The notes under the pieces are model-generated. The model made no database searches. It had not been told where the DNA came from and was given only the letters and a program-made list of their open reading frames with translations. DNA of 64,000 bases, taken from Amycolatopsis acidiphila (GTDB lineage Bacteria > Actinomycetota > Actinomycetes > Mycobacteriales > Pseudonocardiaceae). The translations under genes were made by a program, and so were the position numbers. Each line of letters starts with the position of its first letter. Within the stretch, counting starts at the first letter, position 1. Where the stretch lies: contig NZ_CP090063.1 of the NCBI RefSeq assembly GCF_021391495.1, positions 2,604,001 to 2,668,000 on the forward strand, read 5' to 3'. This document shows positions 24,301-51,736 of the stretch, one piece after another.

Positions 24301-24304
24301 CATC

Positions 24305-27054: not shown

Positions 27055-27124
27055 AATATACCATTCTTTCCTTGCCGCGAGGTAGTGCACCAGCCCGCGC
27101 GGCGTGATCGGTGAAAGGCAAAAG

Positions 27125-28177: not shown

Positions 28178-28179
28178 TT

Positions 28180-28209: not shown

Positions 28210-28235
28210 ATCCAATGTCGGGTGGGAGAGCAGCG

Positions 28236-35840: not shown

Positions 35841-35963
35841 GCCGTGAGTACCGAGGTGGTTCCGCCGGCCGCCCCGGCGCCGAAGTTCAGCCGGACCCCG
35901 GCGACGCTCGGCACGCGTACAAGGTCGGCAGCGATCGGGTGTGATCGCCGTGGAGGGAGAGGG

Positions 35964-36980: not shown

Positions 36981-37786
36981 TGGTGGAGCTGAAGCTGGAG
37001 ACGATCGAGCTGGCGGAGCCGGTGCGGGGCGTCGTCGTGGCGACCCTGAACCGGCCGGAGAGCCTCAACTCGATGACGGTGACGATGTTCGCCGAGCTCG
37101 AGCGGCTGGCGTTCGCCCTCGGCGATGACGACGACGTGCGGGTGCTGGTCCTCACCGGCGCCGGCAAGGCGTTCTGCGCGGGCTACGACCTCGACGACGC
37201 CGACGAGCTGGCCGGGCTGACCGCGCTCGGGATGCTGGAGCGCCAGGAGCACGCCGCGCGCAGCCTGTCCGCGCTGCGGTCGCTGCGGATCCCGGTGATC
37301 GCGGCGGTCAACGGCGCCGCGGCCGGCGGCGGGCTGTCGCTCGCGCTCGCCGCCGACATCAGGCTGGCTTCGCAGACCGCGAAGTTCAATGCCGCGTTCG
37401 TCCGCATCGGACTGTCGGCGGGCGACCTCGGCGCGTCCTGGCTGCTGCCGCGCATCATCGGTCCCGCCCTGGCTTCGGAGATCGCCTACACCGGCCGGTT
37501 CGTGTTCGCGGAGGAGGCGGAGCGCACCGGGCTGGTGAACAAGGTCGTGCCGGGGGAGCGGTTGCTGGAGGAGGCGCTCGCGATGGCCTCGCTCATCTGT
37601 GCCAACTCACCGGGCGGCGTGCAGCTGTCGAAGCGGGCGCTGCAGGCGAACATGGAGATCACCTCCTACGCCGCGGCACTGGAGCTGGAGAACCGCGGCC
37701 AGGCACTGCTCACCCGCGGCGCGGACATGCCCGAGGCGCTGGCCGCCTTCAAGGAAAAGCGCGCGCCCGACTTCACCGGCCGCTGA
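36980..37786 (+). CDS. Enoyl-CoA hydratase/isomerase family protein
   Basis: The 268-residue crotonase has FCAGYDLDDADELAGL near 63-78 and VNGAAAGGGLSLALAADIRL near 107-126. IGLSAGDLGASWLLPRIIG near 141-159 carries the Asp/Gly pattern of isomerase-like members. The C-terminus ends KRAPDFTGR. It is closely similar to the next gene, especially over the last 60 residues (ELENRGQALLTRGADM), so the pair looks like a tandem duplication. It is translationally coupled to the LLM gene. Confidence 0.87.
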   Translation: MVELKLETIELAEPVRGVVVATLNRPESLNSMTVTMFAELERLAFALGDDDDVRVLVLTGAGKAFCAGYDLDDADELAGLTALGMLERQEHAARSLSALRSLRIPVIAAVNGAAAGGGLSLALAADIRLASQTAKFNAAFVRIGLSAGDLGASWLLPRIIGPALASEIAYTGRFVFAEEAERTGLVNKVVPGERLLEEALAMASLICANSPGGVQLSKRALQANMEITSYAAALELENRGQALLTRGADMPEALAAFKEKRAPDFTGR

Positions 37787-37795
37787 GAGGAAACC

Positions 37796-38611
37796 ATGAT
37801 CGACTTCGACGTGCCGGAGCTGAGCACGTTGCGCATCGAGGAACCCGAGGACGGGATCCTGCTGCTGCGGATCAACCGGCCGGAGCGGATGAACTCGCAG
37901 ACCGTCGTGATGTTCGGCGAGTTCCTCGTCGCCGCCCGTGCGATGCGCGACAGCAAGGCGCGGGCGCTCATCCTGACCGGCGCGGGGGAGCGGGCCTTCT
38001 GCGCCGGCTTCGACCTCGACGAGATCGACGTGATCACCCGCATGGGCGTGCGGGAGTTCCTGCACTTCCAGGAGCTGGCCACCGGGGGCCTGGCCGCGAT
38101 CCGCGCGCTGCCGTTCCCGGTGATCGCCGCGGTGCACGGCGCCGCGGTCGGCGGCGGGATGGCGCTCGCGCTGGCCGCCGACCTCCGGCTGGCGGCGCAG
38201 AGCGCGAAGTTCAGCGCGGCGTTCGTCAAGGTGGGCCTCTCGGCAGGAGAGCTGGGCACGTCCTGGCAGCTGACCCGGCTGGTCGGGCCGGGACGCGCGG
38301 CCGAGATCGCCTACACCGCACGGGTCGTCGCCGCCGAGGAGGCGGAACGGATCGGACTGGTGAACCGGGTGGTGCCCGCGCCGGACCTGCTGGGCGAGGC
38401 GCTGGCGACGGCACGGCAGATCGCCGGGAACTCGCCCGGCGGCGTGCGGATGTCCAAGCGGGCGCTGCAGCGCAACCAGGAGGTCGCCTCCTACGCGGGC
38501 GCACTGGAGCTGGAGAACCGCGGGCAGGCACTGCTGACCCGCTGCGCGGACATGACCGAGGCGCTGGCGGCGTTCAAGGACAAGCGCGCGCCGGAATTCA
38601 CGGGAAGGTGA
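37796..38611 (+). CDS. Enoyl-CoA hydratase/isomerase family protein, tandem paralogue
   Basis: The 271-residue crotonase has FCAGFDLDEIDVITRMGV near 67-84, VHGAAVGGGMALALAADLRL and VGLSAGELGTSWQLTRLVG, and ends KRAPEFTGR. Compared with its neighbour it has Glu instead of Asp in the SAG(D/E)LG segment, so the two may catalyse consecutive or different reactions. GAGAGGAAACC precedes the ATG. The end overlaps a possible GTG start of the DUF7064 gene. Confidence 0.88.
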   Translation: MIDFDVPELSTLRIEEPEDGILLLRINRPERMNSQTVVMFGEFLVAARAMRDSKARALILTGAGERAFCAGFDLDEIDVITRMGVREFLHFQELATGGLAAIRALPFPVIAAVHGAAVGGGMALALAADLRLAAQSAKFSAAFVKVGLSAGELGTSWQLTRLVGPGRAAEIAYTARVVAAEEAERIGLVNRVVPAPDLLGEALATARQIAGNSPGGVRMSKRALQRNQEVASYAGALELENRGQALLTRCADMTEALAAFKDKRAPEFTGR

Positions 38612-38616
38612 GGGAC

Positions 38617-39549
38617 ATGGTGACGCTGGGAGACATCGACCCCGGGTTCGGGCCGAACGACGACCTCCGGCACCGGCCCGAGCCGGGCGGCCGGATGCGC
38701 GACAGCCTGTTCTGGGAGCTGATCATGCCGGACGAGCAGCTCGGCATGCAGGTCTACCTGTACCTGACCGACCGCGGCAGGACCGGCTACAACGTGTCGG
38801 TGTGGGGCCCGGGTGCCGAGCCGGTGGCGTTGAAGCTGGCGCAGGGCACGGTCGGCGACGACGTCGACCTGGACAACTTCGAGTTCGAGGGCCTGACGGT
38901 CAAGCAGCCGGAGCTGCGCCGCACCGCGCAGGTCGGCTACACCAGCGACGAGGTGAGCCTGCAGTTCGACTTCACCGCGCTGCACGACGCGTTCAGCTAC
39001 AAGTGCAACCCCGACGGCCTGCCGTCGTGGTTCGCGGCCAACCGGCTCGAGCAGACCGGCCACGTGACGGGCTTCCTGGAGGTCGGCGGACGGCGCATCA
39101 CGTTGGACCGCAAGGGGCACCGGGACCACTCGTGGGGGGTGCGCGACTGGGGCGTGCCGCACCACTGGAAGTGGTTCATCGCCTACACCGAGTCCGGCCG
39201 GGTGGTGAACGGCTGGATCTGGATCGCCCGCGGCGAATGGGGTTTCGCCGGGTACGTCGTCAAGGACGGCGTGACCATCCCGGTGTCGCACATCGAGCAC
39301 AAGGCCGAGTACGACGACGGCATGGTGCAGCGGCGGCTTGAGGCCGACGTCGTGGACATCACCGGCGGGACGACGCGGCTGGTGATGGAGTCCTTCGGCG
39401 CGGTCAAGCTGCCCACGAAGGACCCGATGGGCACGGTGATCACCGAGGCCGCCTGCCGGGCCACGATCGACGGTGCCGAGGGTGCCGGGCAGTTCGAGAC
39501 GCACTGGCCGGGGCAGTACCTGCAGCACCTGATCGAGAGCGGATCATGA
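38617..39549 (+). CDS. DUF7064/hydroxyneurosporene-synthase-like (AttH/CrtC) lipocalin-fold protein
   Basis: The protein has 310 residues. It has a double beta-barrel style rich in Trp/Tyr/Gly, including LDRKGHRDHSWGVRDWG near 165-181 and HHWKWFIAYTESGRVVNGWI. The RDHSWGxRDW core is the family signature. Related proteins in mycobacteria and proteobacteria sit beside acyl-CoA dehydrogenase and APH-type kinase genes; their reaction is not known to me. ATG 38617 has GGGAAGG eight bases upstream; GTG 38608, overlapping the previous stop, is an alternative. The next gene overlaps its stop (ATGA). Confidence 0.78.
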   Translation: MVTLGDIDPGFGPNDDLRHRPEPGGRMRDSLFWELIMPDEQLGMQVYLYLTDRGRTGYNVSVWGPGAEPVALKLAQGTVGDDVDLDNFEFEGLTVKQPELRRTAQVGYTSDEVSLQFDFTALHDAFSYKCNPDGLPSWFAANRLEQTGHVTGFLEVGGRRITLDRKGHRDHSWGVRDWGVPHHWKWFIAYTESGRVVNGWIWIARGEWGFAGYVVKDGVTIPVSHIEHKAEYDDGMVQRRLEADVVDITGGTTRLVMESFGAVKLPTKDPMGTVITEAACRATIDGAEGAGQFETHWPGQYLQHLIESGS

Positions 39550-40562
39550 CCTGGGACTGGAACGACGAACAGCGCGACGGGCTGGCGCGGTTCCTCGCCG
39601 CGCACGGGATCTGCGCCGGGCCCGTGACCACCCGGCGCATCGGGGACGGGCATTCGAACCTGACGTTCCTGGTGGGCGACGGGCAGCGCCAGGTGGTCGT
39701 GCGCCGGCCGCCGCCCCCGCCCGTCCCACCGGGCGCGCACGACGTGCTGCGCGAGGCGAAGCTGATCGGCGCGCTGGCGGGGACCTCGGTTCCGGTGGCC
39801 GAGGTGCTCGCGGTCGCGCAGGCCGGCGAGGTGATCGACGTGCCGTTCTACGTGATGAGCTACGTCGAGGGCCCGGTGATCACGTCGCGGACGCCGGACA
39901 CGCTGAGCACGCCGGGGGACCGGCGCCGGATCGGCGAGTCCCTTGTGGACATACTCGCCGAGCTGCACGCGGTGGACTGGCGGGCGCGCGGGCTCGCCGG
40001 GATGGGCCGCCCGGAAGGCTTCAACGCGCGGCACTTCCGCCGCATGGGCCGGCTGATCGCCGACGAGGAGGGCCGCCCCCCGGCCGAGTTCGCGGAGATC
40101 GACGCGTGGCTGGCCGCGCACGTGCCCGCCGAGGCGGGTGCGACGGTCGTGCACAACGACTACCGGCTGGGGAACGTCATCGTCGGCCCGGACTCGCCCG
40201 GGCGGATCATCGCCGTGCTGGACTGGGAGCTCGCGACGCTGGGTGACCCGCTCTTCGACGTCGGCTACTTCCTGTCGTCCTGGCCGGTGGCCGGGGAGTC
40301 CCGGACGCCGACGGAGGACCTGGCCGTGGCGGCGCTGGAGGAGGGCTACCCCACCCGGGCCGAGCTGGCCGCGCGATACGCGTCGGCGACGGGCCGCGAT
40401 CTGTCCGGTTTGGACTGGTACACCGCGCTGGCCCTGTGGAAGCTGGCGGTGCTCTACGAATACGGCCGCCGCCGCGCGGTGCGGGGTGTGGGCGACGAGT
40501 ACTACGCCGACGCCGCTCTGGTGAAGGCCTTCCTGACAGCGGCGGAGCAAGCCGCGTCGTGA
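39546..40562 (+). CDS. APH-type phosphotransferase (ACAD10/11- or LvaA-like hydroxyacyl-CoA kinase)
   Basis: The 338-residue kinase-fold protein has GDGHSNLTFLV near 33-43, the catalytic loop VVHNDYRLGNVIV near 199-211 (H-x-D-x4-N) and metal motif VLDWELATLGDPLFDVGYF near 222-240. Proteins of this subgroup accompany acyl-CoA dehydrogenases. LvaA and the kinase domains of ACAD10/11 phosphorylate the 4-hydroxyl of hydroxyacyl-CoAs so that an ACAD-like partner can eliminate phosphate. Here it closes an operon of crotonases and lies opposite two acyl-CoA dehydrogenase-type operons, so such a role is plausible; antibiotic resistance is not. Confidence 0.85.
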   Translation: MTWDWNDEQRDGLARFLAAHGICAGPVTTRRIGDGHSNLTFLVGDGQRQVVVRRPPPPPVPPGAHDVLREAKLIGALAGTSVPVAEVLAVAQAGEVIDVPFYVMSYVEGPVITSRTPDTLSTPGDRRRIGESLVDILAELHAVDWRARGLAGMGRPEGFNARHFRRMGRLIADEEGRPPAEFAEIDAWLAAHVPAEAGATVVHNDYRLGNVIVGPDSPGRIIAVLDWELATLGDPLFDVGYFLSSWPVAGESRTPTEDLAVAALEEGYPTRAELAARYASATGRDLSGLDWYTALALWKLAVLYEYGRRRAVRGVGDEYYADAALVKAFLTAAEQAAS

Positions 40563-40620: not shown

Positions 40621-41520
40621 TCAGACGTTGCGCTGCGCCTTCGCCGCCGCGCTCGCGGCCTTGCTGCGTTCCCTGATCTCCGCCCAGTCCTCATCGGACA
40701 GTGACGTTAGCCCGGCGAACGTGCCCGGGCCCGCCAGGCGCTGGCCGCCGTCCATGGCGATCGTCTCGCCGGTCAGGTAGTCGCACGCGTCGGACAGCAG
40801 GAAGATCGTCAGGTTCGCCAGCTCCTCGATCGTGCCCATCCGGCCCATCGGCACCTGGTCCGCCTGCGTCGCGCCCACCGCGCTCTTGTCCGTCGGGTTG
40901 AGCATCTCCCACGCGTAGTCCGTGGGGATCGGCCCCGGCGCCAGCGCGTTGAGCCGGATGCCGTACTTCGCCCACTCCACCGCCAGCGACATCGTCATCG
41001 CGTGCACCGCGGCCTTCGCCATCGCCGAGGGCACCACGAACGCCGAACCGCTCCACACCCAGGTGGTCAGCGTCGACAGCACCACGCCCGGCAGGCCCTG
41101 CTCGATCCAGCGGCGCCCGGCCGCGTGGGTGGTGTTGAACGACCCGTTCATCACCGTCGAGCTCACCGCCTCGAACCCGCGTGCGCTCAGCGTCTTCGTC
41201 GGCGCGATGAAGTTGGCCGCGGCGTTGTTGATCACGCCGGTGAGCGGGCCGTGCCCGGCCCAGATCTCCGCCATCGCCGCGTCGACCAGGTCTGCATCAC
41301 GCACGTCCACGGTCTGGAAGTGCACGGTGCCGGGCTTGCCCGCCTCGGCCGCGGCCTCCGCGAGCACCGTCTCCCGACGGCCCCACAGATGCACCTGCGC
41401 CCCGTGGTCGGCCAGGTGCCGCGCGACCCCGCGGCCCAGCCCCGTGCCGCCGCCGGTGATCAGGATGCGCTTGCCCGCCAGCAGGTCCGCGGCGAACACG
41501 GACTTCCTCGTCGATGCCAT
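40621..41520 (-). CDS. SDR, 2,4-dienoyl-CoA reductase-like
   Basis: The 299-residue protein has TGGGTGLGRG near 23-32, NNAAANFIAPT near 97-107 and a C-terminal PDCR-type tail. In place of YxxxK it has SAMAK (in VVPSAMAKAAVHAMT), which matches the dienoyl-CoA reductase branch of SDRs, where the classical Tyr is missing and Lys is kept. It would reduce a conjugated dienoyl-CoA with NADPH. It is the distal gene of a minus-strand cluster with an acyl-CoA dehydrogenase and a BadI-like hydrolase. Confidence 0.85.
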   Translation of the reverse strand: MASTRKSVFAADLLAGKRILITGGGTGLGRGVARHLADHGAQVHLWGRRETVLAEAAAEAGKPGTVHFQTVDVRDADLVDAAMAEIWAGHGPLTGVINNAAANFIAPTKTLSARGFEAVSSTVMNGSFNTTHAAGRRWIEQGLPGVVLSTLTTWVWSGSAFVVPSAMAKAAVHAMTMSLAVEWAKYGIRLNALAPGPIPTDYAWEMLNPTDKSAVGATQADQVPMGRMGTIEELANLTIFLLSDACDYLTGETIAMDGGQRLAGPGTFAGLTSLSDEDWAEIRERSKAASAAAKAQRNV

Positions 41521-41533: not shown

Positions 41534-42670
41534 CTACAGCCCGAAGCTCTTGCTGATGATCTCGCGCTGGATCTCGTTGGTGCCGCCGTAGATCGGCGGC
41601 GCCAGGGCCTTGCGCACCTGGCCTTCCATGCCGTACTCGCGTGCGTAGCCGTAGCCGCCCATCATCTGCATCGCCTCCAGCGCGGTGTGCTTGGCGATCT
41701 CGGTGCACTTGAGCTTCGCCATCGACCCCTCCCGGGCCAGTTGGTCCTCCTCACCGGCGTCGATCCGCGCCGCGACGTCGTAGACGAACGCCTTCGCGTA
41801 GGCGATCTCCGTTGCCAGGTCGGCGATCCGGTGCCGGATCGCCTGGAAGCTGCCGATCGTCCGGCCGAACTGCTCCCGCTCCTGCACGTACGCGAGCACG
41901 TCGTCCAGCGACCGCTCCGCGGCACCCAGCGACATCGTCGCGATGATGAGCCGCTCGACGGACAGCCCGCGCATCAGGTGCTTCCACGCCTGCCCGGCCT
42001 CGCCGACGACGTTCGCGACCGGGATCCGCACGCTGGTGAAGAACAGGTCGTTGACCGTGCGCGGTTCCATCGTCTCGATGCCGCGGATCTCCAGCCCGGG
42101 CACGTCGGTCGGCACGATCAGCAGCGTCAGGCCCTGATGCTTGTCGCCGGTGGAGTCGGTGCGGGCCAGCAGCAGGAGGTGCTTGGCGATGTGCGCGGCC
42201 GAGGTCCAGGTCTTCTGGCCGTCGACGACGTAGTGGTCGCCGTCGAGCACCGCCCTGATCCGCACCGAGCCCAGGTCCGATCCCGCGCCGGGCTCGGACA
42301 GCGCGATGGCCTCCACCTCGCCGGCGCAGAGGCCGCCGAGGATGTCCTTCTTCTGTTCCTCCGTGCCGTAGCGCAGGTACGTCTGCGCGGCGGTCAGGCC
42401 GGTGGAGTACGCCGTGATCGGGGCCAGGCCGCGGGAGGTCTCCTCGAGGAACAGGCACTCGTCGACCATGCCCGCCCCGGCTCCGCCGTACTCCTCCGGG
42501 ATCGACACGCCGAGCCAGCCGAGCGCGGCGAGCTTGCGCAGGATCTCCGGGCTGTTGGCGAGGCTGCCGCCGTCGGTGAGCGCGTCCCGCTGGGCGAGCG
42601 TCCGGCACTCGCTGTCGCAGAACTCGCGCACCGCGGCGGCGAACCGTCGCTGTTCCTCGCTGAATCGCAT
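41534..42670 (-). CDS. Acyl-CoA dehydrogenase
   Basis: The 378-residue enzyme has AIALSEPGAGSDLGSVRIRA near 119-138, YVVDGQKTWTSAAHIAKHLL, and MQMMGGYGYAREYGMEG near 340-356 with the catalytic-type Glu. The start ATG at 42668-42670 directly abuts the GTGAACGACCGTTATC element, leaving one base between operator and start and no Shine-Dalgarno sequence. Either the transcript is leaderless or translation depends on the BadI-like gene upstream. It could introduce a double bond in an alicyclic acyl-CoA; AliB-like function is an inference from neighbours. Confidence 0.9.
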   Translation of the reverse strand: MRFSEEQRRFAAAVREFCDSECRTLAQRDALTDGGSLANSPEILRKLAALGWLGVSIPEEYGGAGAGMVDECLFLEETSRGLAPITAYSTGLTAAQTYLRYGTEEQKKDILGGLCAGEVEAIALSEPGAGSDLGSVRIRAVLDGDHYVVDGQKTWTSAAHIAKHLLLLARTDSTGDKHQGLTLLIVPTDVPGLEIRGIETMEPRTVNDLFFTSVRIPVANVVGEAGQAWKHLMRGLSVERLIIATMSLGAAERSLDDVLAYVQEREQFGRTIGSFQAIRHRIADLATEIAYAKAFVYDVAARIDAGEEDQLAREGSMAKLKCTEIAKHTALEAMQMMGGYGYAREYGMEGQVRKALAPPIYGGTNEIQREIISKSFGL

Positions 42671-42671: not shown

Positions 42672-42687
42672 GTGAACGACCGTTATC
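42672..42687. promoter_or_regulatory. TetR-type operator, copy 2 (GTGAACGACCGTTATC)
   Basis: This is the same 16-base element as at 17382 and 43562. It fills the 15-base gap between the BadI-like gene and the acyl-CoA dehydrogenase gene and overlaps the stop codon of the former by two bases. Confidence 0.5.
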
Positions 42688-43480
42688 AGTTGCCGCGGAA
42701 GGCGGAGAAGTCGGGGGTGCGCTTCTCGTTGAAGGCCGTGATGCCCTCGTTGGCCTCCGCGGACTCGCCGAAGGTCTTGAGGTAGGAGTACGCCATCTGG
42801 CCGACGGCCGCGAACTGCTCGGTGTCGGTGTTGAACGACTGCTTGAGCACCTTGAGCGCGGTGGGGGACAGGGCCAGGATCTCGTCGGCCCAGGCGCGCA
42901 CCTCGGCGTGCAGGTCGGCGGCCGGGACGACCTTGTTGACCAGGCCCCAGTTCTCCATCTGGGCCGCGGTGTAGCGGCGGCAGAGGAACCACACCTCGCG
43001 AGCGCGCTTCTCGCCGAGGACGCGGGCGAGGTAGCCGGTGCCGAAGCCGGCGTCGAACGAACCGACGCGCGGCCCGTTCTGGCCGAACTTCGCGGTGTCC
43101 GCGGCGATGGTGAGGTCGCACAGCACGTGCAGCACGTGGCCGCCGCCGATGGCGAAGCCGTTGACCGCGGCGATCACCGGCTTGGGCACGTCGCGGATGA
43201 CGTGGTGCAGCGCGTCGATCTCGAAGAGGCCGGAGTCCGACGGGCCGTAGTCGCCGGTCTCCGCGCGCTGCTTCTGGTCGCCGCCCGTGCAGAAGGCCTT
43301 CTCTCCGGCGCCGGTCAGGCAGATGACGCCGACCTCGTCGCTGTTCCACGCCTTCTTGAACGCCTTCACCAGTTCGTCGACGGTGCGCGCGCGGAAGGAG
43401 TTGTACCGCTCCGGCCGGTTGATCGTGATCCACGCGAGGCCGTTGTCGGCCTTGTACGTGATGTCGGTGAAGTCGTCCAT
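42686..43480 (-). CDS. BadI-like 2-ketocyclohexanecarboxyl-CoA hydrolase (crotonase family)
   Basis: The 264-residue protein has YKADNGLAWITINRPERYNS at 8-27, FCTGGDQKQRAETGDYG near 67-83, [20 protein letters not shown] near 137-156 and REVWFLCRRYTAAQMENWGL. These match BadI of R. palustris in order and spacing. BadI hydrolyses the ring of 2-ketocyclohexane-1-carboxyl-CoA to pimelyl-CoA. ATG at 43478-43480 is preferred to a TTG 99 bases upstream since GGAAAGGA lies before it and the upstream residues lack family character. A TetR-type operator lies about 80 bases upstream. Confidence 0.86.
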   Translation of the reverse strand: MDDFTDITYKADNGLAWITINRPERYNSFRARTVDELVKAFKKAWNSDEVGVICLTGAGEKAFCTGGDQKQRAETGDYGPSDSGLFEIDALHHVIRDVPKPVIAAVNGFAIGGGHVLHVLCDLTIAADTAKFGQNGPRVGSFDAGFGTGYLARVLGEKRAREVWFLCRRYTAAQMENWGLVNKVVPAADLHAEVRAWADEILALSPTALKVLKQSFNTDTEQFAAVGQMAYSYLKTFGESAEANEGITAFNEKRTPDFSAFRGN

Positions 43481-43660: not shown

Positions 43661-44599
43661 TCAGCCGCGGCGAACGGCGATCGACGCCCCGAGGTGAACG
43701 GCACCGCCCGCGGTTCCGTCGCAGCCGGCGCACGAATGGCCGGCGCCGGAGTGGGCGTGCGGGAACAGCTGGACGTCGGTGTCCGCGTCGTGGCCGGGCG
43801 GAGCCGGCGGCGTCGTACGCCCGGACGACTCCAGGGCCAGCAGAGCGGCCCCGTACGCGCCGGTGATCTGCGGATGTGCGGGCACCTGGACCTCGAGGCC
43901 GAGGGCCCGCGCCAGGAACCGCACCGCGGCGGGGTTCTGCGCCACCCCGCCGGTCATGACGACCGGTGCCCGCCGGCCGACCTGCGCCACCAGCGCCAGC
44001 GTCCGGCCCGCGATCGCGCGGTGCACCGAGGCCGCGATGTCCGGCGTGGGAAGCCCCTGCGCCAGCATGGAGACGATCTCGGTCTCGGCGAAGGTCGCGC
44101 ACATCCCGCTGACCTCGAGGTCCGGGCTGCCGCGCAGCGCGAGCCCGCCCAGGGTCTCGATGTCGCACTCCAGAGCCCTGGCCAGCACCTCGTAGAACCG
44201 GCCGGTGCCACTGGCACACCGGTCGTTCATCGCGAAGTCGTCCACCAGGCCGCTCTCGTCGACAACGATCGCCTTGCTGTCCTGTCCGCCGATGTCGACG
44301 ACCAGCCGCACCCCGGGGCACATCGCCGCCGTGCCGCGGGCGTGACAGGTGATCTCGGTGAACATCCGGTGCGTGCCGGGCACCAGCTTGCGGCCGTACC
44401 CGGTCGACACCGTCCCCGACACGTCGCCCTCGGCGATCCCGGCCTCCGCGAGCGCGAGGTCGATGGCCTTCTGCATGCCCTGACGGCTCACCGCCCCCAT
44501 CTGCACGACACTGGTCGCGACCAGGTCGCCCCGCCCGTCCACGACGGCGGCCTTGGCGGTGGTCGACCCCAGGTCGACGCCCAGGTAGTGGCCGGTCAT
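43661..44599 (-). CDS. BadF/BadG/BcrA/BcrD ATPase family activator (HgdC-like) of a radical dehydratase/reductase
   Basis: The 312-residue ASKHA-fold ATPase has GVDLGSTTAKAAVVDG near 7-22 (phosphate 1), VDIGGQDSKAIVVDESG near 105-121 (phosphate 2 and helix), and two cluster cysteines in NDRCASGTGRFYE and SGMCATFAETEI that bridge a [4Fe-4S] in the dimer. VMTGGVAQNP is the adenosine motif. It would hydrolyse ATP to fire one low-potential electron into the partner subunits. A 45-residue Gly/His-rich tail with CAGC is unusual. The start overlaps the partner stop (ATGA). One activator gene suggests a homodimer as in HgdC. Confidence 0.9.
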   Translation of the reverse strand: MTGHYLGVDLGSTTAKAAVVDGRGDLVATSVVQMGAVSRQGMQKAIDLALAEAGIAEGDVSGTVSTGYGRKLVPGTHRMFTEITCHARGTAAMCPGVRLVVDIGGQDSKAIVVDESGLVDDFAMNDRCASGTGRFYEVLARALECDIETLGGLALRGSPDLEVSGMCATFAETEIVSMLAQGLPTPDIAASVHRAIAGRTLALVAQVGRRAPVVMTGGVAQNPAAVRFLARALGLEVQVPAHPQITGAYGAALLALESSGRTTPPAPPGHDADTDVQLFPHAHSGAGHSCAGCDGTAGGAVHLGASIAVRRG

Positions 44600-45966
44600 G
44601 CGATCGCGCTGAACCCGTCGGGCAGGGCTCCGCGCTCCCGGCGGACGTCGATCGCCTCGAGCATGGCCACCAGCCGGCTCTCCAGGATGCCGTCCTTGTA
44701 GAACGACGCGTCCGCGACGTCGCCTTCGAAGAAGATGGACGGGATGCCCAGCTTGTCCTGTGCCGCCTTGGCGAGCAGGCGCTGCGGCCCGGTGAAGGCG
44801 CGGCAGGTGCGCGTGGAGTGGAACACGAGGCCGTCGAGGCCGTACTCCTCGCAGTCGCGCAAGGTCAGGTACTCCAGCGTCTTGGCGCCGTGGTTCGTGG
44901 GGCACAGCAGGTAGTGCTGCGCCATGCCCAGAATCGGGTCGGAGGTGTCGATCAGGTGCGGTTCCTGCCAGAACGCGTTCTGGATGTAGCGCCCGGCCAG
45001 CACCGCCACGCCGTGCTCGGCGAACTTGCGGGACAGGAAGCCGAGCTTGTTCCAGTTCATGATGCCGTCGAAGTACAGCCGGTACTTCTCGTCCTTGACC
45101 GCGGAGACCCCGTTGTCGATCCGGTCGGAGATCTCGTCGCGCACGGCCGCGAAGTAGTCCACCAGCTCCTGGTTCCCGGGCAGGAAGTTGATGGGCGCGA
45201 CGCTCGCGATCCAGTCCCAGAACGTGGCGGGCGCGGGTTTTGCCTTGCACAGGGCCAGACCTTCACGGCGCAGCTCCGCCGCGCGTTTGATGTGGGTCAT
45301 GCTCTCGCAGAGCGCGTCGTGGTCGAACGGGCGTCCGGTCTGCTGCTCGAGGAACTCGATGAGGTTGCGCAGCTGCTCGGCGACGAACTTCGACGCGTCC
45401 TCCCACTCCTCGCCCCGGAGATACCCGGCGTCGGGCCGGTTTCCCCAGAGGAAGGGGTGCGAGATGTTGAAGATGGGCAGCTTCTTGCCGAAGACCCGGT
45501 AGGAGATGCCGTCCCACTGCTGTCCGGTGCTGCAGCCGGCGTAGTTGTTGACGAAGAAGTCCGGCGCGGGCAGCTTCGCGGCCAGCACTTCCTGGTCGTG
45601 CGCGCCGACGACACCCGTCTGGTCGCCCTCGGTGCCCTGCAGGGTGAGCACGGAACACCCCAGGTGGGTCCGCGAGTAGGAGCAGAGCTCGGCGTTGTAG
45701 CCGTACTCGGCCCCGGCCAGCTGCGCCGGGCCCTCCACGCGCTGGGCGGCCAGCCGCGCCGCGAAAGCCTCGCCGTGGCACCACGCGAGCCCGGCCGCCT
45801 GGAACATCGGGTTGAGCGCGCCGCCGTTGTACCAGACGATCTTCTTTCCCCGCTCGCGGGCGGTGAAGAGGTCCTCCCAGTACTCGGAGATCAGCCGGCC
45901 GCCGACGCGGGTGATCCCGAGCCTGTTGCTCTTGTCCTCGGCAGGCTTTTCGATCGTTTCCAGCAT
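44596..45966 (-). CDS. 2-hydroxyacyl-CoA dehydratase / benzoyl-CoA reductase family subunit (HgdA/BcrB-like)
   Basis: The 456-residue protein belongs to the HGD-D/BcrB-BadE family. Cysteines expected to bind the subunit [4Fe-4S] cluster lie in AELCSYSRTHLG, NNYAGCSTGQQW and HSTRTCRAFTGPQ. The C-terminal FEGDVADASFYKDGILESR matches the family's closing motif. It would form a heterodimer with the product of the gene upstream and receive electrons from the activator. Such enzymes dehydrate 2-hydroxyacyl-CoAs or reduce benzoyl-CoA and are oxygen-sensitive. All cluster ligands appear intact. The gene overlaps the activator by four bases. Confidence 0.88.
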   Translation of the reverse strand: MLETIEKPAEDKSNRLGITRVGGRLISEYWEDLFTARERGKKIVWYNGGALNPMFQAAGLAWCHGEAFAARLAAQRVEGPAQLAGAEYGYNAELCSYSRTHLGCSVLTLQGTEGDQTGVVGAHDQEVLAAKLPAPDFFVNNYAGCSTGQQWDGISYRVFGKKLPIFNISHPFLWGNRPDAGYLRGEEWEDASKFVAEQLRNLIEFLEQQTGRPFDHDALCESMTHIKRAAELRREGLALCKAKPAPATFWDWIASVAPINFLPGNQELVDYFAAVRDEISDRIDNGVSAVKDEKYRLYFDGIMNWNKLGFLSRKFAEHGVAVLAGRYIQNAFWQEPHLIDTSDPILGMAQHYLLCPTNHGAKTLEYLTLRDCEEYGLDGLVFHSTRTCRAFTGPQRLLAKAAQDKLGIPSIFFEGDVADASFYKDGILESRLVAMLEAIDVRRERGALPDGFSAIA

Positions 45967-45993
45967 TTCGACTCGTCTCCTGTCGGTCGGGGT

Positions 45994-47160
45994 TCAGACG
46001 TGCACGGGCCGGCGGCGGCGAGCGCGCTCCACCAGCGTCTCGATCCGCGTGCGGAAGGATTCGAGGGGGATGCCTTCGTGCTCGGTCTCGATCTGAAGCT
46101 GCGGGATTCCCGCCGCGTCAAGGCGTTTGCGCAGTTCGGGGTAGTAGAGCATGTGCGGTTCGCAGAACTTCGGTACCAGGTGGATGACCGCTTCGGCAGC
46201 ACTGACGCGGACGGCGTCCACGAGGTAGCCGTCCCAGTCGACGTCCTGCTGAACCCGTGTGGGGCAGGGGATGGTGACGTTGCGCCGCGCGTACCACTCG
46301 CCAAGGGCCTCGACGGGGTCACCGGTCTCCGCGACGTCCGTGGAGACGTAGCGGCGGCCGTGGTAGAGGTCGTCGTCGACGACTGCCGCGCCACTGTCCT
46401 CGATGACCTCGAGCAGTTCCCGGCGCGGCGCGTGGCACAGGTGCCCCGACAGGTGCACCCGCACCCTGTCGTCCCGCTCGGACCTGCGTGGCTCCAGCAG
46501 GACGTCGGTGAGCAGCGCGTGGTGTTCGACCGGGTCCATCACCATGCTCGAGGTGATGATGTCCTGGAGTTCGACGGGGCCGAACGCGGCATTCCCGGTG
46601 GCGCGCTCGTCGAGCAGCCGCCGGATCAGCGCGCGGTCCCGGTTGTACGCGCCGATGCTGTCGCGGAGGGTGCCGAGCTCGACCGGGTTCCCGGTGAACG
46701 CCTCGATCTCCGCCCGGATCCGCCGCATCATCGCCGAGACCTGCCGGGGCGCCCAGGGGTCGTTCATGGACGTGTTGAGCATGCCGAGGAACACCGTCGT
46801 GTCCGGTTTCAGCGAGCGCACGATGTCGGCCGAGCCGATCAGCTGGATGCAGTGGTCGGCCTGGAAGACCCCGTCGTACACGTCGAAGCGCCCGGTGGCC
46901 ACCTGGTCGGCCAGGTTGCGGGTGTAACCGCAGTAGAACTCCGCCAGCAGCGCGCGGCCCTCCGTGATCGGCTGCTGGTCGTCCTGGACGATCACCGGCA
47001 GCGCGCCCGCGGCGTGCGCCAGCTCGCGCGGGAAGTTCATCGGAAGGATCGCCAGTACCGGACGGCCGGCGTGCCCGGACCGCCACTGCTCGATGTAGAC
47101 GCGGGGATCGCGCGCCACCTCGACCAGTTTCGCCATGGCTGCGGAAGACGCGTCGGTCAT
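45994..47160 (-). CDS. 2-hydroxyacyl-CoA dehydratase / benzoyl-CoA reductase family subunit (HgdB/BcrC-like)
   Basis: The 388-residue second subunit has LAEFYCGYTRNLADQVATG near 73-91, FQADHCIQLIGSADIVRSL near 100-118 and HLVPKFCEPHMLYYPELR near 321-338. These place three cysteines as cluster ligands. The last part, IETEHEGIPLESFRTRIETL, is the family C-terminal motif (E-x-E, then RTRxE). ATG at 47158-47160 is supported by an upstream AGGAACC. It leads the three-gene set (B subunit, A subunit, activator), all minus strand and tightly spaced. No ferredoxin gene is seen nearby. Confidence 0.88.
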   Translation of the reverse strand: MTDASSAAMAKLVEVARDPRVYIEQWRSGHAGRPVLAILPMNFPRELAHAAGALPVIVQDDQQPITEGRALLAEFYCGYTRNLADQVATGRFDVYDGVFQADHCIQLIGSADIVRSLKPDTTVFLGMLNTSMNDPWAPRQVSAMMRRIRAEIEAFTGNPVELGTLRDSIGAYNRDRALIRRLLDERATGNAAFGPVELQDIITSSMVMDPVEHHALLTDVLLEPRRSERDDRVRVHLSGHLCHAPRRELLEVIEDSGAAVVDDDLYHGRRYVSTDVAETGDPVEALGEWYARRNVTIPCPTRVQQDVDWDGYLVDAVRVSAAEAVIHLVPKFCEPHMLYYPELRKRLDAAGIPQLQIETEHEGIPLESFRTRIETLVERARRRRPVHV

Positions 47161-47338: not shown

Positions 47339-48151
47339 TCAGCGCTCGCCGTGGTGGTGCGCCGAAGCGACGACGCAGAGCTTTCCCGCCTGGTTGAGCC
47401 CCGTCACCTGCGTCACGGCCAGCCGGCGGCCGTGGCTGGCGACGTCGGCGTGGAACGTGCCGACATCGCCGCCCACGAGCGGCCGCAGGTAGCTGACGGT
47501 CAGCGAAGCCGGGGTCAGGCCGCCGGCCACCGAGTCGACCGCCAGGCCGGCCAGTAGTCCGGTCAGCCAGAGCGTGATCCCGCCGTGCAGCGTCCGCAAC
47601 GGGTTGACCAGATCGTCCTCGATGGGGATCGAGAGCCGGGCGCGGCCGTCCACGGCCGACGTCCTCTCGCGGACGGTCTCGCCGAGTTCGCCGACCGACC
47701 GGCAAGGACCCGCGAAAGCGCTTTCATCGGACTGTCCGGCAGGGGCCCGCTCGATGAACCGCCCCCACTGACGGCATCGAGCGACCAGTTCGCCGTCCGA
47801 CGCGAGGACCGAGCCCTCCGCCAGCCCGGTCCGCCCGGATGCGTGCACGACACGGGCCTGGGCGGACAGCCGCGTGCCGTCGGCCGGCAGCGGGCTGAGG
47901 AAATCGAGCGAGATCTCGGTGCTCACCGACCACCAGCCGGCGGGCGCCGACCCGATCAGCGCGTAGCCGAGCACGTTGTCCGCCAGCACGCCCACCGCCG
48001 AGGCCTCGCCCGGCCCGCTCGACCAGGGGCCATTGGTCATGAACCCCCGGCATTCGTCCCCGTCGGCGCTCAGGCCGCCGACGCCGAACAAGGCCTCGGG
48101 ACCGCCGGGGTGGAAGTCCTGCCGGTTGTCACGCGAAGTAGCCGCGTCCAT
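47339..48151 (-). CDS. Double-hotdog acyl-CoA thioesterase (PaaI/4HBT-like)
   Basis: The 270-residue protein has two hotdog repeats. The first (about 30-135) has ADNVLGYALIGSAPAGWWSV and STEISLDFLSPLPADGTRL. The second (about 160-268) has NPLRTLHGGITLWLTG with the HGG helix-cap motif and SLTVSYLRPLVGGDVG. This layout is that of PaaI-like or TesB-like thioesterases releasing CoA from dead-end acyl-CoAs. ATG at 48149-48151 has only weak purine-rich sequence before it. It lies 26 bases after the paaX gene and is likely in one transcript with it. Confidence 0.83.
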   Translation of the reverse strand: MDAATSRDNRQDFHPGGPEALFGVGGLSADGDECRGFMTNGPWSSGPGEASAVGVLADNVLGYALIGSAPAGWWSVSTEISLDFLSPLPADGTRLSAQARVVHASGRTGLAEGSVLASDGELVARCRQWGRFIERAPAGQSDESAFAGPCRSVGELGETVRERTSAVDGRARLSIPIEDDLVNPLRTLHGGITLWLTGLLAGLAVDSVAGGLTPASLTVSYLRPLVGGDVGTFHADVASHGRRLAVTQVTGLNQAGKLCVVASAHHHGER

Positions 48152-48177: not shown

Positions 48178-49032
48178 TCACGGTGTGTTGATCTCGGCGA
48201 AGCGCCGCCGCACGACCGGCGTCCACTGCGCCCGCAGTGCCTCGATCCGCCGGGCCACCCGGCGGCCGACCCAGTCCGGCAGGATGGCCTCGGGCAGCTG
48301 CGGGTCCGCCCGCGGGAACTCCTGCCACTCACTGATCACCCGGATGTGCGCGAAGAGGGTCTCGTTGGCATCCGCCGGGTGCAGGGCGTCCATCGCCTCC
48401 CACACCTGCTCGTAACGGGACCGCAGGGTGGCCAGGTCCCAGCCCCGCTCGACGATCTCCTCCTGCGGGATGCCGATGGCACCGACGTTGCCGGTGAAGG
48501 CGAAGGTGTACTGCTTGAGCCCGAGCGTCTCCAGGAGCCGGCCGACCTCGTCGGAACGCTCGACGTGGGGCGTCAGCCACAGCCCCGGCACCGGGTTGCC
48601 GAAGCCGGCCCAGGTGAGGCCGGCGTACAGCGGCCTGCGGGAGCGGCGGAGCGACTGGGGGATGATCGTCCACAGCGCCAGCCAGGTGCCGTCCCAGCCG
48701 GTGAACGGGTCGCTCAGCGAGTAGACGCGGCGGGAGCCGGTCTCGAAGATGTGCACCAGCTTGTCCGTGAGCGTCCACCGCACCTCGCGTCCCTGGCGTT
48801 CCGGGGTGATCCAGCCGGACGCGGACGCTCGCGCGATCGCCTGCCGGGCCGTCTGCTCCTCGATGCCCAGCCCCTTCAGCACGTACACCAGGGTCGAGGT
48901 CCACACGGGCTGCCCGGTGGGCCACACCAGTTCACCGAGGATGGTGATCAGCAACGACCGGGCGCTGCCATGTGTCAGGGTGCTGTCGACGGACTCGCGC
49001 GGCGACGTTTCGAGCGCGCCGGGGGTCGGCAT
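48178..49032 (-). CDS. PaaX-family transcriptional regulator
   Basis: The 284-residue protein has an N-terminal PaaX winged helix at about 20-90 (SLLITILGELVWPTGQPVWT, then EEQTARQAIARASASGWI), the central PaaX dimer domain (DGTWLALWTIIPQSLRRSRR) and a C-terminal helical domain. PaaX represses phenylacetate genes and is relieved by phenylacetyl-CoA, so an aromatic acyl-CoA effector is plausible. ATG at 49030-49032 is chosen since AGGAGG stands six bases before it; GTG at 49074 would add 14 residues. It may control the thioesterase, SDR and ligase genes around it. Confidence 0.87.
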   Translation of the reverse strand: MPTPGALETSPRESVDSTLTHGSARSLLITILGELVWPTGQPVWTSTLVYVLKGLGIEEQTARQAIARASASGWITPERQGREVRWTLTDKLVHIFETGSRRVYSLSDPFTGWDGTWLALWTIIPQSLRRSRRPLYAGLTWAGFGNPVPGLWLTPHVERSDEVGRLLETLGLKQYTFAFTGNVGAIGIPQEEIVERGWDLATLRSRYEQVWEAMDALHPADANETLFAHIRVISEWQEFPRADPQLPEAILPDWVGRRVARRIEALRAQWTPVVRRRFAEINTP

Positions 49033-49113
49033 CTGCGCCTCCTGGTGGTCGGTCGGCGGGTCGGTACTCGGCACGTCGAGCAGGCTATCGGGGGCACCTC
49101 GTGATGGCTGGGC

Positions 49114-49908
49114 TCAGCCCGCGGAGATGCCGCCGTTGACGCTGATGACCTGCCCGGTCAGCTTGGCGGACCCGGGACCGCCGAGGAACACGATCACCGA
49201 GGCGAGGTCCTCCGGCTCGGCGACTCCCAGGTGCGCCTGGCGCGCCGCCTTTTCGAACAGCGCCTTGCTGAAGCCGTCGCGCAGGACGTTCTCGGCGGTC
49301 GGGGTGCCGGCGATCAGCGACGGCGTCACGGCGTTGACCCGCACTCCGTCGCGCTTGGCCTCGATGGCGGTGACGCGCGAGAACATGACGATGGCCGCCA
49401 TGGCGGCGCCCAGTACGGCTTCGCCTGGCGTCGGCACCTTGGCCGCGTCGGAGGCGAGGTTGATGATGCTGCCGCCGCCCTGTTCCTGCAGCAGCGGCAG
49501 CACGGCGCGGGTCAGGTTCATCGGGGGCAGCGCCTGGCGGGTCAGGATCGCGCAGACCTCGTCCTGCGGGGTCCGGTGCAGCAGCTCGGGCCGGTAGCTG
49601 CTGGTCATCGAGTTGACCAGCACGTCGATCGTGCCGAGGCTGCGCCGCGCCTCGGCGACGGAGGCGTTCACGTGGTCGATGTCGTCCGCATCGGTCGGGA
49701 TGAACACCACCTCGGCCTCCGGGCACTGCTGCAGGACCCGCTCGCGAGCGGCCTTGCCGCGTTCGGTGTTCCTCGCGAGAAGGGCGATACGGCGGACCCC
49801 GGCGGCCGCGAACCCGAGGGCGCTCGCCAGTCCCACGCCCGACGTACCCCCGGCGATGACGACGCCGGAGCCGGGATAGTCGCGAACGAGGGGCGGGTGC
49901 GCGGGCAT
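49114..49908 (-). CDS. SDR-family protein lacking the catalytic Tyr and Lys
   Basis: The 264-residue SDR fold has GGTSGVGLA near 20-28, LARNTERG, VLVNSMTSSYRPELLHRT (NNAG replaced by VNSM) and a C-terminal GQVISVNGG. The usual active site YxASK reads LGAAM (VLGAAMAAIVMFS), so both catalytic residues are missing, and the NNAG motif is altered. It may be a non-oxidoreductase member or bind a CoA ligand. It is divergent from the CoA ligase at 50066, with a strong palindromic region between them. Confidence 0.8.
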   Translation of the reverse strand: MPAHPPLVRDYPGSGVVIAGGTSGVGLASALGFAAAGVRRIALLARNTERGKAARERVLQQCPEAEVVFIPTDADDIDHVNASVAEARRSLGTIDVLVNSMTSSYRPELLHRTPQDEVCAILTRQALPPMNLTRAVLPLLQEQGGGSIINLASDAAKVPTPGEAVLGAAMAAIVMFSRVTAIEAKRDGVRVNAVTPSLIAGTPTAENVLRDGFSKALFEKAARQAHLGVAEPEDLASVIVFLGGPGSAKLTGQVISVNGGISAG

Positions 49909-50002: not shown

Positions 50003-50043
50003 AGGTTGGACCGAAGATTGTACTCTTCGGTGACTCGAGTCAC
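50003..50043. promoter_or_regulatory. Compound operator: FadR-like core plus two palindromes (site F)
   Basis: AGGTTGGACC contains the core GGTCCAAC on the minus strand. It runs into ACCGAAGA (50010-50017), six bases and TCTTCGGT (50024-50031), a perfect 8-bp inverted repeat. This in turn overlaps GTGACTCGAGTCAC (50030-50043), a perfect 14-bp palindrome. It lies in the divergent promoter region, 22 bases before the CoA-ligase start. Confidence 0.55.
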
Positions 50044-50065
50044 ATCGATACAAGGGAGTAGCGAG

Positions 50066-51736
50066 ATGGCCGACGTCCGGGTCCTGGACACGTCCTACTG
50101 GCCTGCCGAGCCGGGGGACGTGCACGACGTCACGGTCTGCGAGACGCTTCGGCACGCTGCCGCGACGGTGCCGGACCGGCCGGCGCTGGTCGACTGCGTG
50201 CAGGACGCCGGGGCCCGGAAAGCCTGGACCTATGCCGAGCTCGCGGCGGACGCGGAGCGTGTCGCGCGGGCGTTGCTGACCACGTTCTCGCGTGGCGACC
50301 GCATCGCCGTCTGGGCTCCGAACAGCGCGAACTGGATCGTGCTGCAGCACGGGATCGCCATGGCCGGGATGGTGCTGGTGGCGCTCAACCCCGCCTACCG
50401 CGCCCGGGAGATGGGCTTCGTGCTCAGGCAGTCCGGAGCCGTCGGGCTGTTCTGTCCGGAGCGCTACCGGGGGTTCGACATGCGAGGCATGATCGAGGAC
50501 ATTCGCCCGGAGACGCCCGCGCTGCGCGAGGTCGTGACCTTCGAGGAGTGGGACGCTTTCCTCGACCGCGGGGATCCGGGTCTGGTGCTCCCGGAGGTGG
50601 GGCCCGACGACGTGATCCAGATCCAGTACACATCCGGGACGACCGGCTTTCCCAAGGGTGCCATGCTGCACCACAAAGGACTGGTGAACGAAGCCCGGCA
50701 CGTCGCCGAGCGGGCGGGCATGAGCGACGGTGGGGTGTACGTCAACGCGATGCCGATGTACCACATCGGTGGCGGTGCGGTGACCTCGTTCGGGGCCTGG
50801 GCCAAGCGCGGCACGTTCGTGATCCTGCCCGGCTTCGAGGCCGGGTTGCTGTTGGAGGCGCTCGAGACCTACCGCGGCACCCACACCCTGGTCGTCCCGA
50901 CGATGCTGATCGCGATGCTCGACCACCCGGATCGCGCCCGGCGCGACCTGACGAGTGTGCAGACGATCCTCAGCGGGGCGGCCTCGGTGCCGGCGTCGCT
51001 CGTGCGGAAGACGCAGAAGCTGCTGAACTGCCAGTTCAGCATCCTTTTCGGACAGACCGAGACGCACGGGGTCGTCAGTCAGACCAGGGTGACCGACTCG
51101 CCGGAGGACCAGGCGGAGACGGTCGGCCGGCCGTTGCCGCAGCTGGAGGTCAAGATCGCCGACGAGGTCACCGGAGAGCCGGTCGCGCTGCACGAGACCG
51201 GGGAGATCTGCTGCCGTGGCTACCAGAACATGCTGGGCTACTACCGGATGGAGACCGAGACCACGTCGACGATCGACGCGGACGGCTGGCTGCACATGGG
51301 CGATCTCGGCTCGATGGACGAGCGGGGGTTCATCAGTATCCGCGGCCGGATGAAGGACATGATCATCCGCGGTGGCCTGAACATCTACCCCGCCGAGATC
51401 GAGGGCGCGCTCGGCGACCACCCCGCGATCGAGTACGCGGCGGTGATCGGGGTGCCCGACGCCAGGTGGGGGGAGCAGATCGGCGCGGTCGTGACGTTGC
51501 GCGAGGGTGTCGAACGTCCTTCGGTGGAGGAGCTGACCGACTACCTGCGGGCGGAGATCGCGCCCCACAAGACGCCGGTCTACTGGGCGTTCGTCGACCA
51601 GATGCCGGCCACGCCCAGCGGCAAGATCCAGAAGTTCGTACTGCGCGAGCGCGTCGAAAGCGGAGCCCTCGCCTTCGACGCCGTCCGCTCGGCGAGCGCC
51701 GGCCCAGCGGACGCTGCCGAGCGGGTGTCTCGCTGA
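50066..51736 (+). CDS. Acyl-CoA synthetase (class I adenylate-forming CoA ligase)
   Basis: The 556-residue ligase has YTSGTTGFPKGAMLHHKG near 189-206, MPMYHIGGGA near 229, LFGQTETHGV near 331, MGDLGSMDERGF near 411 and the A10 lysine region TPSGKIQKF near 517. By pattern it belongs to the FadD/feruloyl-CoA-synthetase-like group, different from the GCLHT ligases at 15127 and 20458. AAGGGAG precedes the ATG. Close to the dehydratase/reductase genes and PaaX, it is a candidate for activating an aromatic or hydroxylated acid. Confidence 0.9.
   Translation: MADVRVLDTSYWPAEPGDVHDVTVCETLRHAAATVPDRPALVDCVQDAGARKAWTYAELAADAERVARALLTTFSRGDRIAVWAPNSANWIVLQHGIAMAGMVLVALNPAYRAREMGFVLRQSGAVGLFCPERYRGFDMRGMIEDIRPETPALREVVTFEEWDAFLDRGDPGLVLPEVGPDDVIQIQYTSGTTGFPKGAMLHHKGLVNEARHVAERAGMSDGGVYVNAMPMYHIGGGAVTSFGAWAKRGTFVILPGFEAGLLLEALETYRGTHTLVVPTMLIAMLDHPDRARRDLTSVQTILSGAASVPASLVRKTQKLLNCQFSILFGQTETHGVVSQTRVTDSPEDQAETVGRPLPQLEVKIADEVTGEPVALHETGEICCRGYQNMLGYYRMETETTSTIDADGWLHMGDLGSMDERGFISIRGRMKDMIIRGGLNIYPAEIEGALGDHPAIEYAAVIGVPDARWGEQIGAVVTLREGVERPSVEELTDYLRAEIAPHKTPVYWAFVDQMPATPSGKIQKFVLRERVESGALAFDAVRSASAGPADAAERVSR

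Follow-up and report, generated by a model that had tools for sequence, protein, structure and literature searches.

A single-activator gene set of the benzoyl-CoA reductase/2-hydroxyacyl-CoA dehydratase type, joined to ring-cleavage genes in Amycolatopsis acidiphila and other aerobic bacteria

The window analysed here, a stretch of 64,000 nucleotides of the Amycolatopsis acidiphila genome, carries on its minus strand (43661-47160) three adjoining genes for two PF06050 subunits and one activase. They are transcribed in the order C-B-activase, and the 3' end of the subunit B gene overlaps the 5' start of the activase gene. Subunits B and C score 169 and 193 bits on PF06050 (cut-off 28.4), and the activase scores 225 bits on TIGR00241 (cut-off 125.4) and 204 bits, also above cut-off, on PF01869; the PF06050 catalytic proteins and the BadF/BadG/BcrA/BcrD-type activase that mark the wider benzoyl-CoA reductase (BCR)/2-hydroxyacyl-CoA dehydratase (HAD) family are thus both present. 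The original prediction, which saw an activator and two [4Fe-4S] subunits side by side, forming a BCR/HAD-type radical system with one activator beside ring-degradation genes, is borne out: the coordinates match, the six conserved cluster cysteines are there and the system looks complete. Judged by its motifs, the set is a real and complete branch of this family that none of the curated families used here names.

Cluster ligands and placement of the two subunits

The ligands were followed in alignments holding 16 (B) or 14 (C) family members and three more distant ones (L073, L090, L091), together with the outside relatives L077, L084 and L086, Bcr sequences from five (C) or six (B) stretches, and HadBC, MbdON and BzdNO sequences taken from solved-structure entries. 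With BzdNO numbered as in PMC11971306, the B ligands C95, C145 and C388 align with BzdO C95, C128 and C380 in 19 of 19 family rows, and the C ligands C77, C104 and C333 with BzdN C73, C100 and C327 in 17 of 17. Every aligned family row therefore has the three cysteines per subunit that hold a [4Fe-4S] cluster in the wider family. The catalytic glutamate, Glu66 of subunit B (BzdO Glu65), is likewise kept in every row. As for the six cysteines that bind the [8Fe-9S] double cubane in BzdN, only four are kept (C77, C104, C299 and C333); Pro40 stands where BzdN has C36, and Tyr266 (Tyr or Phe across the family) where it has C263, meaning that the Bzd-type set is incomplete. C242 and C299 of subunit C occur in all 17 family rows, and C242 is common to MbdN, five BcrC rows and L084. 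The BzdO His131 position is Gly148 in subunit B, in a column that may be one residue off, since HadB Val120 aligns there and PMC11971306 gives alanine.

The predicted structure of subunit B matches HadB, BzdO and MbdO, with HadB as the solved fold of highest Z (VIA-align, run for B), and that of subunit C reaches a TM score of 0.83 to 3o3m_B and to 8s02_B. Besides the ends, pLDDT is below 50 at residues 92-123 and 417-422 of B and 63-76 and 334-337 of C, around the cluster loops, and we therefore make no claim about the pocket. Residues shared solely with Bcr, Had or Bzd (3, 14 and 7 in B; 6, 7 and 12 in C) were left unused, since one HadB against seven Bcr/Mbd rows biases such counts.

In both trees the subunits formed a clade of their own with support of 100/99, apart from the Bcr plus Mbd clade (99/98 in the B tree, 97/90 in the C tree) and excluding HadB and HadC; the reference branches were long and comprised one HadBC pair, one Mbd, one Bzd and five or six Bcr. 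Placement inside a known dehydratase clade, which the original prediction had named as its refutation, was thus looked for and did not occur with these few references (one HadBC pair). The curated equivalog models were not reached either, be it those of class I BCR (BcrC 155/421, BcrB 92/487, BzdN 114/454 and BzdO 69/449 bits), of HAD (124/750 bits for HadB with subunit B, and 114/700 bits) or of the double-cubane cluster protein, DCCP (98 and 42 bits, cut-off 350); the best matches were BcrC for subunit C and HadB for subunit B. Equivalog scores, ligand columns and trees taken together led us to reject the idea that the set belongs to one of the known families (BCR, Bzd, Mbd, HAD, DCCP).

Set beside class I BCRs (Bcr, Mbd, Bzd), the genes described here are alike in their two related catalytic subunits, [4Fe-4S] ligands, catalytic glutamate and nearby ring-cleavage genes, and presumably also in the order C-B-activator, which we take to be that of class I operons. 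They differ in having one activator instead of two, in their separate clade, in the lack of an equivalog score, in an O2-dependent setting and, from Bzd, in the incomplete double-cubane ligands. HadBC/HadI and the wider HADs share with them the single activator gene, three cluster cysteines per subunit and the highest-Z fold of subunit B, but not the clade, an equivalog score or the two cysteines in the activase tail (see below), and their setting is amino-acid fermentation whereas here it is a ligase, a PaaX-type regulator and BadI. DCCP and its reductase (DCCP-R) resemble the set in fold and in having one activator type; DCCP is a single-gene homodimer with a double cubane, whereas two distinct catalytic subunits are found here, with double-cubane ligands that are incomplete relative to BzdN.

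These comparisons bear on the main alternative, a HAD-type dehydratase in which a ketyl radical would remove the alpha (or vinylogous gamma) hydroxyl of a ring-acid thioester with catalytic ATP, giving an enoyl-CoA to the neighbouring pathway. The single activator gene, the somewhat closer score and model of subunit B to HadB and the incomplete double cubane speak for it; the separate clade in both trees does not.

The single activator and the spread of the family

TIGR00241 matches above cut-off numbered exactly one in 16 of 18 genomes, A. acidiphila included, and the other two (G398 and G412) hold two activases, one beside each of two loci. The two different activators of class I BCRs were thus not found, and by gene count alone the activator is as in HADs; the HAD-type homodimeric activator of the original prediction stands as far as the single gene goes, the homodimer being expected rather than observed. 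Most activases end in a C-terminal tail (median 60 residues) that carries a C-x-x-C motif in 41 of the 47 recovered by clustering out of 62 stretches with an activase. The other six have C-x-x-x-C (three), a single cysteine, none, or a short frame without tail. The nearest Protein Data Bank (PDB) chains include 4eht, 9gai_D and 1hux, and the five matched PDB activases (243-276 residues) extend at most about 20 residues beyond the aligned part.

PF06050 proteins number exactly two in 12 of 17 genomes and four or six in the others; A. acidiphila has this pair only. Two or three BC pairs lie close together at L109-L110 (G735), L046, L058 and L061, the last in a genome (G396) with six PF06050 matches and one activase, where one activator may serve several pairs. 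Other, lower-scoring PF06050 pairs, apparently outside the family, were seen on contigs of Rhodococcus jostii, Amycolatopsis acididurans and Citricoccus (G398:C23, G406:C24, G412:C12), and distant PF06050 proteins lie on Novosphingobium and Rhizobium plasmids (L076, L077) among different neighbours (a TRAP transporter; rhodanese-like genes).

Homologue searches gave about 8,000 candidates per subunit, of which 536 (B) and 1237 (C) passed E 1e-3; among the best 120 of each, the organism-named matches were nearly all actinobacterial. A pattern scan with one genome per species found 69 distinct loci, 55 of them actinobacterial and 14 proteobacterial by record title (Zhongshania, Paracoccus, Sphingopyxis and Novosphingobium among the latter), with two loci in some species; an oddity private to one genome was rejected on this ground. 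Copies also lie on plasmids of Rhodococcus ruber, Rhodobacteraceae QY30 and two Sphingopyxis macrogoltabida records, and a more distant one (49%) in Azoarcus KH32C. The carrier genera are generally known as aerobic. The distribution is patchy: at E 1e-60 one of 396 genomes of the phylum sample, that of A. acidiphila itself, carries the family, as do, by subunit B, 3 of 19 genomes of its genus and 9 of 28 of the R. opacus genus. This patchiness, together with the O2 sensitivity of both enzyme types, would suit an anaerobic gene set that has decayed, or was simply acquired, and has no function in the aerobes that carry it. We regard this as very improbable: mean column identity in the family alignments is 77% (A1) and 79% (A2), subunit B is near full length at 65 of 69 loci (partial at L064, L069, L070 and L071), and the gene neighbourhood described below is conserved.

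Module, backbone and the slot shared with a P450 operon

The set belongs to a larger conserved catabolic cluster (window 15-52 kb) that occurs patchily in many genera, that the original prediction overlooked and of which it is one optional module (Table 1). Partners were counted in 73 scanned stretches (the 69 loci and four plasmid stretches) at no less than 38% identity over half of each label, a loose limit that may count a few other short-chain dehydrogenases/reductases (SDRs) or ligases.

Table 1. Genes of the catabolic cluster in the window, with family matches and occurrence in the 73 scanned stretches. Rows down to BadI1 are assigned to the backbone (see below), rows from the activase on to the module.
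Feature	Coordinates	Strand	Matches and occurrence
Two cyclohexanecarboxylate-CoA-ligase-like ligases, crotonase, PimC-like dehydrogenase, Acs-like ligase (upstream run)	15127..26227	+	syntenic
Two acyl-CoA dehydrogenases, SDR, thiolase, CoA-transferase (beta-oxidation run)	27104..32552	+	order kept in G717, G718, G735, G399
Hydroxymethylglutaryl-CoA (HMG-CoA) lyase-type enzyme	32549..33466	+	NF004283 325 bits (cut-off 246)
BadH-like 2-hydroxycyclohexanecarboxyl-CoA dehydrogenase, intact Ser-Tyr-Lys	33477..34235	+	TIGR03206 306 bits, best match (cut-off 431)
BadI2, MenB/BadI-like hydrolase	34232..35056	+	PRK07396 448 bits (cut-off 380); TIGR03210 257 bits, below cut-off
Three crotonases, F420/LLM oxidoreductase, unassigned protein, phosphotransferase-family protein	35073..40562	+	no NCBIfam match for the last two at the cut used
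2,4-dienoyl-CoA reductase-like SDR	40621..41520	-	PRK07677 228 bits (cut-off 318)
Acyl-CoA dehydrogenase/reductase	41534..42670	-	syntenic in G717, G718, G735, G399, G750
BadI1, 2-ketocyclohexanecarboxyl-CoA hydrolase-like	42686..43480	-	TIGR03210 329 bits (cut-off 468); PRK07396 344 bits, below cut-off
Single acyl-CoA dehydratase/reductase activase, predicted ATP-dependent electron activator	43661..44599	-	312 aa; 62/73
Subunit B, BcrB/HadB-like catalytic	44596..45966	-	456 aa; ligands C95, C145, C388; Glu66; CSTGQQWD motif; 70/73
Subunit C, BcrC/HadC-like	45994..47160	-	388 aa; proximal cluster ligands C77, C104, C333; 69/73
Hotdog thioesterase	47339..48151	-	TIGR00369 above cut-off; 4/73
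PaaX-family regulator	48178..49074	-	PF07848/PF20803/PF08223 above cut-off; 42/73
SDR2, BadH-like SDR, Tyr to Leu/Ile, Lys to Met	49114..49908	-	TIGR03206 110 bits; 63/73
AMP-forming acyl/aryl-CoA ligase	50006..51736	+	PF00501; 50/73

Clustering at 70 loci (window included) recovered SDR2 at 52, the ligase at 50, the PaaX-family regulator at 37 and a CaiB-type CoA-transferase at 16. In the 52 SDR2 copies the catalytic Ser is kept throughout, Tyr is replaced by Leu (28) or Ile (24) and Lys by Met (52), whereas five control SDRs, the BadH-like one of the window among them, all have Lys. Four of the controls also have Ser and Tyr; in the fifth, the dienoyl-CoA-reductase-like SDR, these are Thr and Ser. 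An ordinary BadH was therefore rejected for SDR2, and of the BadH-type neighbour in the original prediction what stands is a BadH-like protein without Tyr and Lys, the better BadH candidate being the plus-strand gene with the intact triad. Ordinary SDRs are the nearest PDB chains to SDR2, which does not settle its reaction, and those nearest to the ligase, a salicylate-AMP ligase, a fatty-acyl-CoA synthase and a feruloyl-CoA synthetase, do not settle whether its acid is aromatic. The regulator does not reach the PaaX equivalog TIGR02277 (123/265 bits). At L030 (R. koreensis), genes read as a branched-chain-type ABC transporter lie a few kb from the module and might serve acid uptake.

The partners weigh on both sides of the HAD-type dehydratase. 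CaiB-type CoA-transferases serve known HADs and one is present in 22 of the 73 stretches, sometimes away from the pair; on the other hand, 50 of the stretches have a ligase of their own, PaaX regulators of known function respond to aryl-CoA, and no gene forming a 2-hydroxy acid was recognised, without a search aimed at one. On the whole we think such a dehydratase unlikely, although it is a serious contender.

The remainder of the cluster, here called the backbone, resembles an alicyclic ring-cleavage pathway. BadI1 makes the BadI-type neighbour of the original prediction a fair call despite its score below cut-off; the AliB/BadK-type neighbour is indeed an acyl-CoA dehydrogenase (41534-42670), but only distantly like cyclohexanecarboxyl-CoA dehydrogenase (176 bits, cut-off 575). 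The two upstream ligases score 428 and 426 bits (cut-off 792) and the PimC-like dehydrogenase 198/624 bits. At the cut used, NCBIfam gave no match for 27104-28177, assigned by sequence, or for the last two genes of 35073-40562, named by eye and from the R. ruber annotation. The R. ruber plasmid has the same order, annotated as acyl-CoA dehydrogenase, SDR, thiolase, acetyl-CoA hydrolase/transferase, hydroxymethylglutaryl-CoA lyase, 3-oxoacyl-ACP reductase, two other genes and menB. BadI2 also exceeds a second MenB equivalog cut-off (387 against 343 bits); yet its neighbours are the BadH-like and HMG-CoA-lyase genes of a ring-cleavage operon, and the MenB annotation on the R. ruber plasmid is probably wrong. 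If a 4-branched 2-oxocyclohexanecarboxyl-CoA were opened in the BadI manner and then beta-oxidised, a 3-alkylglutaryl-CoA would be expected from known chemistry, and HMG-CoA-lyase-type cleavage, CoA transfer and thiolysis would finish it; the backbone enzymes would thus fit a para-branched (p-menthane-like) ring. A remnant of a full anaerobic benzoate pathway was rejected, the genome having two PF06050 proteins and one activase.

The place of the module beside the backbone can be taken by another operon. In G718, G735 and G399 the backbone is followed first by a ferredoxin-cytochrome P450-ferredoxin reductase-alcohol dehydrogenase-aldehyde dehydrogenase operon joined to it and next by the module. 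In G717, where backbone and P450 operon are both present, no subunit B, C, activase or SDR2 was found in the 100 kb scanned, nor subunit B anywhere in the genome. G750, of the same genus as A. acidiphila, aligns collinearly with the window over the backbone (about 85-90% DNA identity), and the alignment ends at window position 43632, 29 bases short of the activase stop codon. At that spot beside BadI1, a LuxR-P450-ferredoxin reductase-ferredoxin-alcohol dehydrogenase-aldehyde dehydrogenase operon stands instead of the module; subunit B was not found in the genome, nor SDR2 in the 100 kb scanned. Two genomes of one genus thus have the same position next to a shared pathway filled by the module in one case and by the P450 operon in the other. 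A further genome (G736) has the module on contig C29 and the P450 operon beside BadI1 on C173, where a copy of SDR2 (60%) lies close to the LuxR gene. The P450 of G750 is 71% identical to that of R. opacus. A. acidiphila itself has a similar P450 operon at 5.18 Mb (P450 71% to the R. opacus one); its neighbour is a Rieske dioxygenase of the benzoate type (269 bits, cut-off 781). Two more relatives, at 57% and 51%, lie elsewhere. This operon (C1:5176001-5196000, L097), P450tol/P450-terp-like, also lies near a dihydrodiol-dehydrogenase-like SDR and a LuxR-type regulator.

Of 28 genomes of the R. opacus genus, the 9 that have subunit B all carry a P450 orthologue (at least 93% identity), as does just 1 of the 19 that lack it (Fisher p 1.4e-6, uncorrected for kinship and so overstated). 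Eight of these nine have both genes on a single contig, separated by about 7-27 kb; in G727 they are truncated matches on separate contigs. BadI1 behaves similarly: orthologues occur in 8 of 9 genomes with subunit B against 1 of 19 without in the R. opacus genus (at least 79%), in 3 of 3 (A. acidiphila included) against 1 of 16 in its own genus (at least 91%), and in 11 of 12 against 2 of 35 over both (Fisher p 5e-8, likewise uncorrected for kinship and overstated); these identity limits were set after seeing the matches, and weaker matches (62-67%) in more genomes were not counted.

The best solved relatives of the R. opacus P450 are p450tol (682 bits) and P450-terp (473 bits), and the R. globerulus enzymes CYP108N12 and CYP108N14 are reported in the review PMC11279926 to hydroxylate the methyl group of p-cymene and of limonene, N14 also that of terpineols. 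On these grounds the probable product of the P450 operon is a carboxylic acid with an aromatic or alicyclic ring. The acids entering the backbone in G717 and G750 are likely non-aromatic, because both do without the module. In Rhodococcus the set is tightly linked to an operon of the P450tol/P450-terp-like kind; this link, the acceptance of limonene and terpineols and the resemblance of the backbone ligases to cyclohexanecarboxylate-CoA ligase would also agree with a radical step, reductive or eliminating, on a monoterpenoid acyl-CoA that is not aromatic, for instance to adjust the oxidation state or open a strained ring of a P450-made terpenoid acid. We hold this to be rather improbable, since G717 and G750, with P450 operon and backbone only, seem to handle terpenoid acids without the module.

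Proposed function

As G717 and G750 run the backbone without it, the module most simply adds a substrate class, and an aromatic acid requiring dearomatisation is the best candidate. We tentatively read the set as an optional feeder module for alicyclic-ring cleavage, a third kind of aryl-CoA reductase acting in O2-needing cells on what may be para-alkylbenzoyl-CoA, and put this slightly below an even chance. The ligase would convert a ring carboxylic acid to its CoA thioester, p-cumate or another para-alkylbenzoate being the likeliest substrate. A homodimeric activator would take electrons one at a time from a ferredoxin encoded at an unlinked site, energise them with ATP and pass them to the two-subunit [4Fe-4S] enzyme for reduction of the aryl-CoA to a cyclohexadienoyl-CoA. 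SDR2, despite lacking Tyr and Lys, might act on this product, perhaps by hydride transfer to a C=C bond, for entry into the backbone, where hydration, BadH, ring opening by BadI, beta-oxidation and HMG-CoA-lyase-type cleavage would follow. As the original prediction stated, no ferredoxin gene was found in the window, with two cysteine patterns applied to frames of high third-position GC; elsewhere in the genome a POR_N protein (166 bits, a 635-aa frame, KorA-like by guess) may be a source of reduced ferredoxin.

Several observations argue for this reading. HMG-CoA lyase, CoA-transferase and thiolase suit a para-branched ring; ligase, PaaX-family regulator and SDR2 travel with the pair; the backbone occurs without the module, whereas nearly all genomes with subunit B in the two genera have the backbone BadI1, and in G750 the P450 operon fills the slot beside it. 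In the sequences and models, the BcrC affinity of subunit C and the C242 it shares with MbdN and BcrC, the retained [4Fe-4S] ligands and catalytic glutamate, and folds matching HadB, BzdO and MbdO all seem compatible with an aryl-CoA reductase. The anaerobic para-alkylbenzoate routes of denitrifiers (4-methylbenzoate, p-cymene) presumably share the aryl-CoA reduction, BadH/BadI-like ring opening and HMG-CoA-lyase-type end, and differ, we assume, from the aerobic genera with P450 activation considered here. The kind of chemistry is known, and what is new is the clade, the activator make-up and the genomic context; a search of the open literature on such sets in aerobes, over titles and abstract openings, turned up no apparent description of the clade among the papers listed, which included one on the actinobacterial order Anaerosomatales and one on a bzd cassette. 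It is possible, if doubtful, that the clade is a benzoyl-CoA-type reductase of a third class, whose one activator is a homodimer bearing an extra two-cysteine tail, and that it drives reductive dearomatisation with ATP in aerobes, feeding the backbone that otherwise receives P450-made acids.

BCRs and HADs are textbook anaerobic catalysts, and this clade is kept in dozens of species of aerobic genera. The P450 link implies only that cells using the pathway meet O2; should the module function in its presence, ATP-driven radical chemistry at [4Fe-4S] clusters would run in O2-needing cells. Cultivable carriers (R. opacus, R. jostii, Amycolatopsis) make both O2 tolerance and substrate testable, and the generic annotation "2-hydroxyacyl-CoA dehydratase" could be corrected.

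Outside the cluster, two heavy-metal P-type ATPase-like proteins in tandem, then sigma-factor-like and zinc-finger anti-sigma-like genes, were recognised by eye at 397-7637. Also seen by eye, the plus strand at 53450-56083 encodes a large protein that is probably secreted; its N-terminal part is hydrolase-like, and it contains repeats of segments rich in Ala, Gly and Thr.

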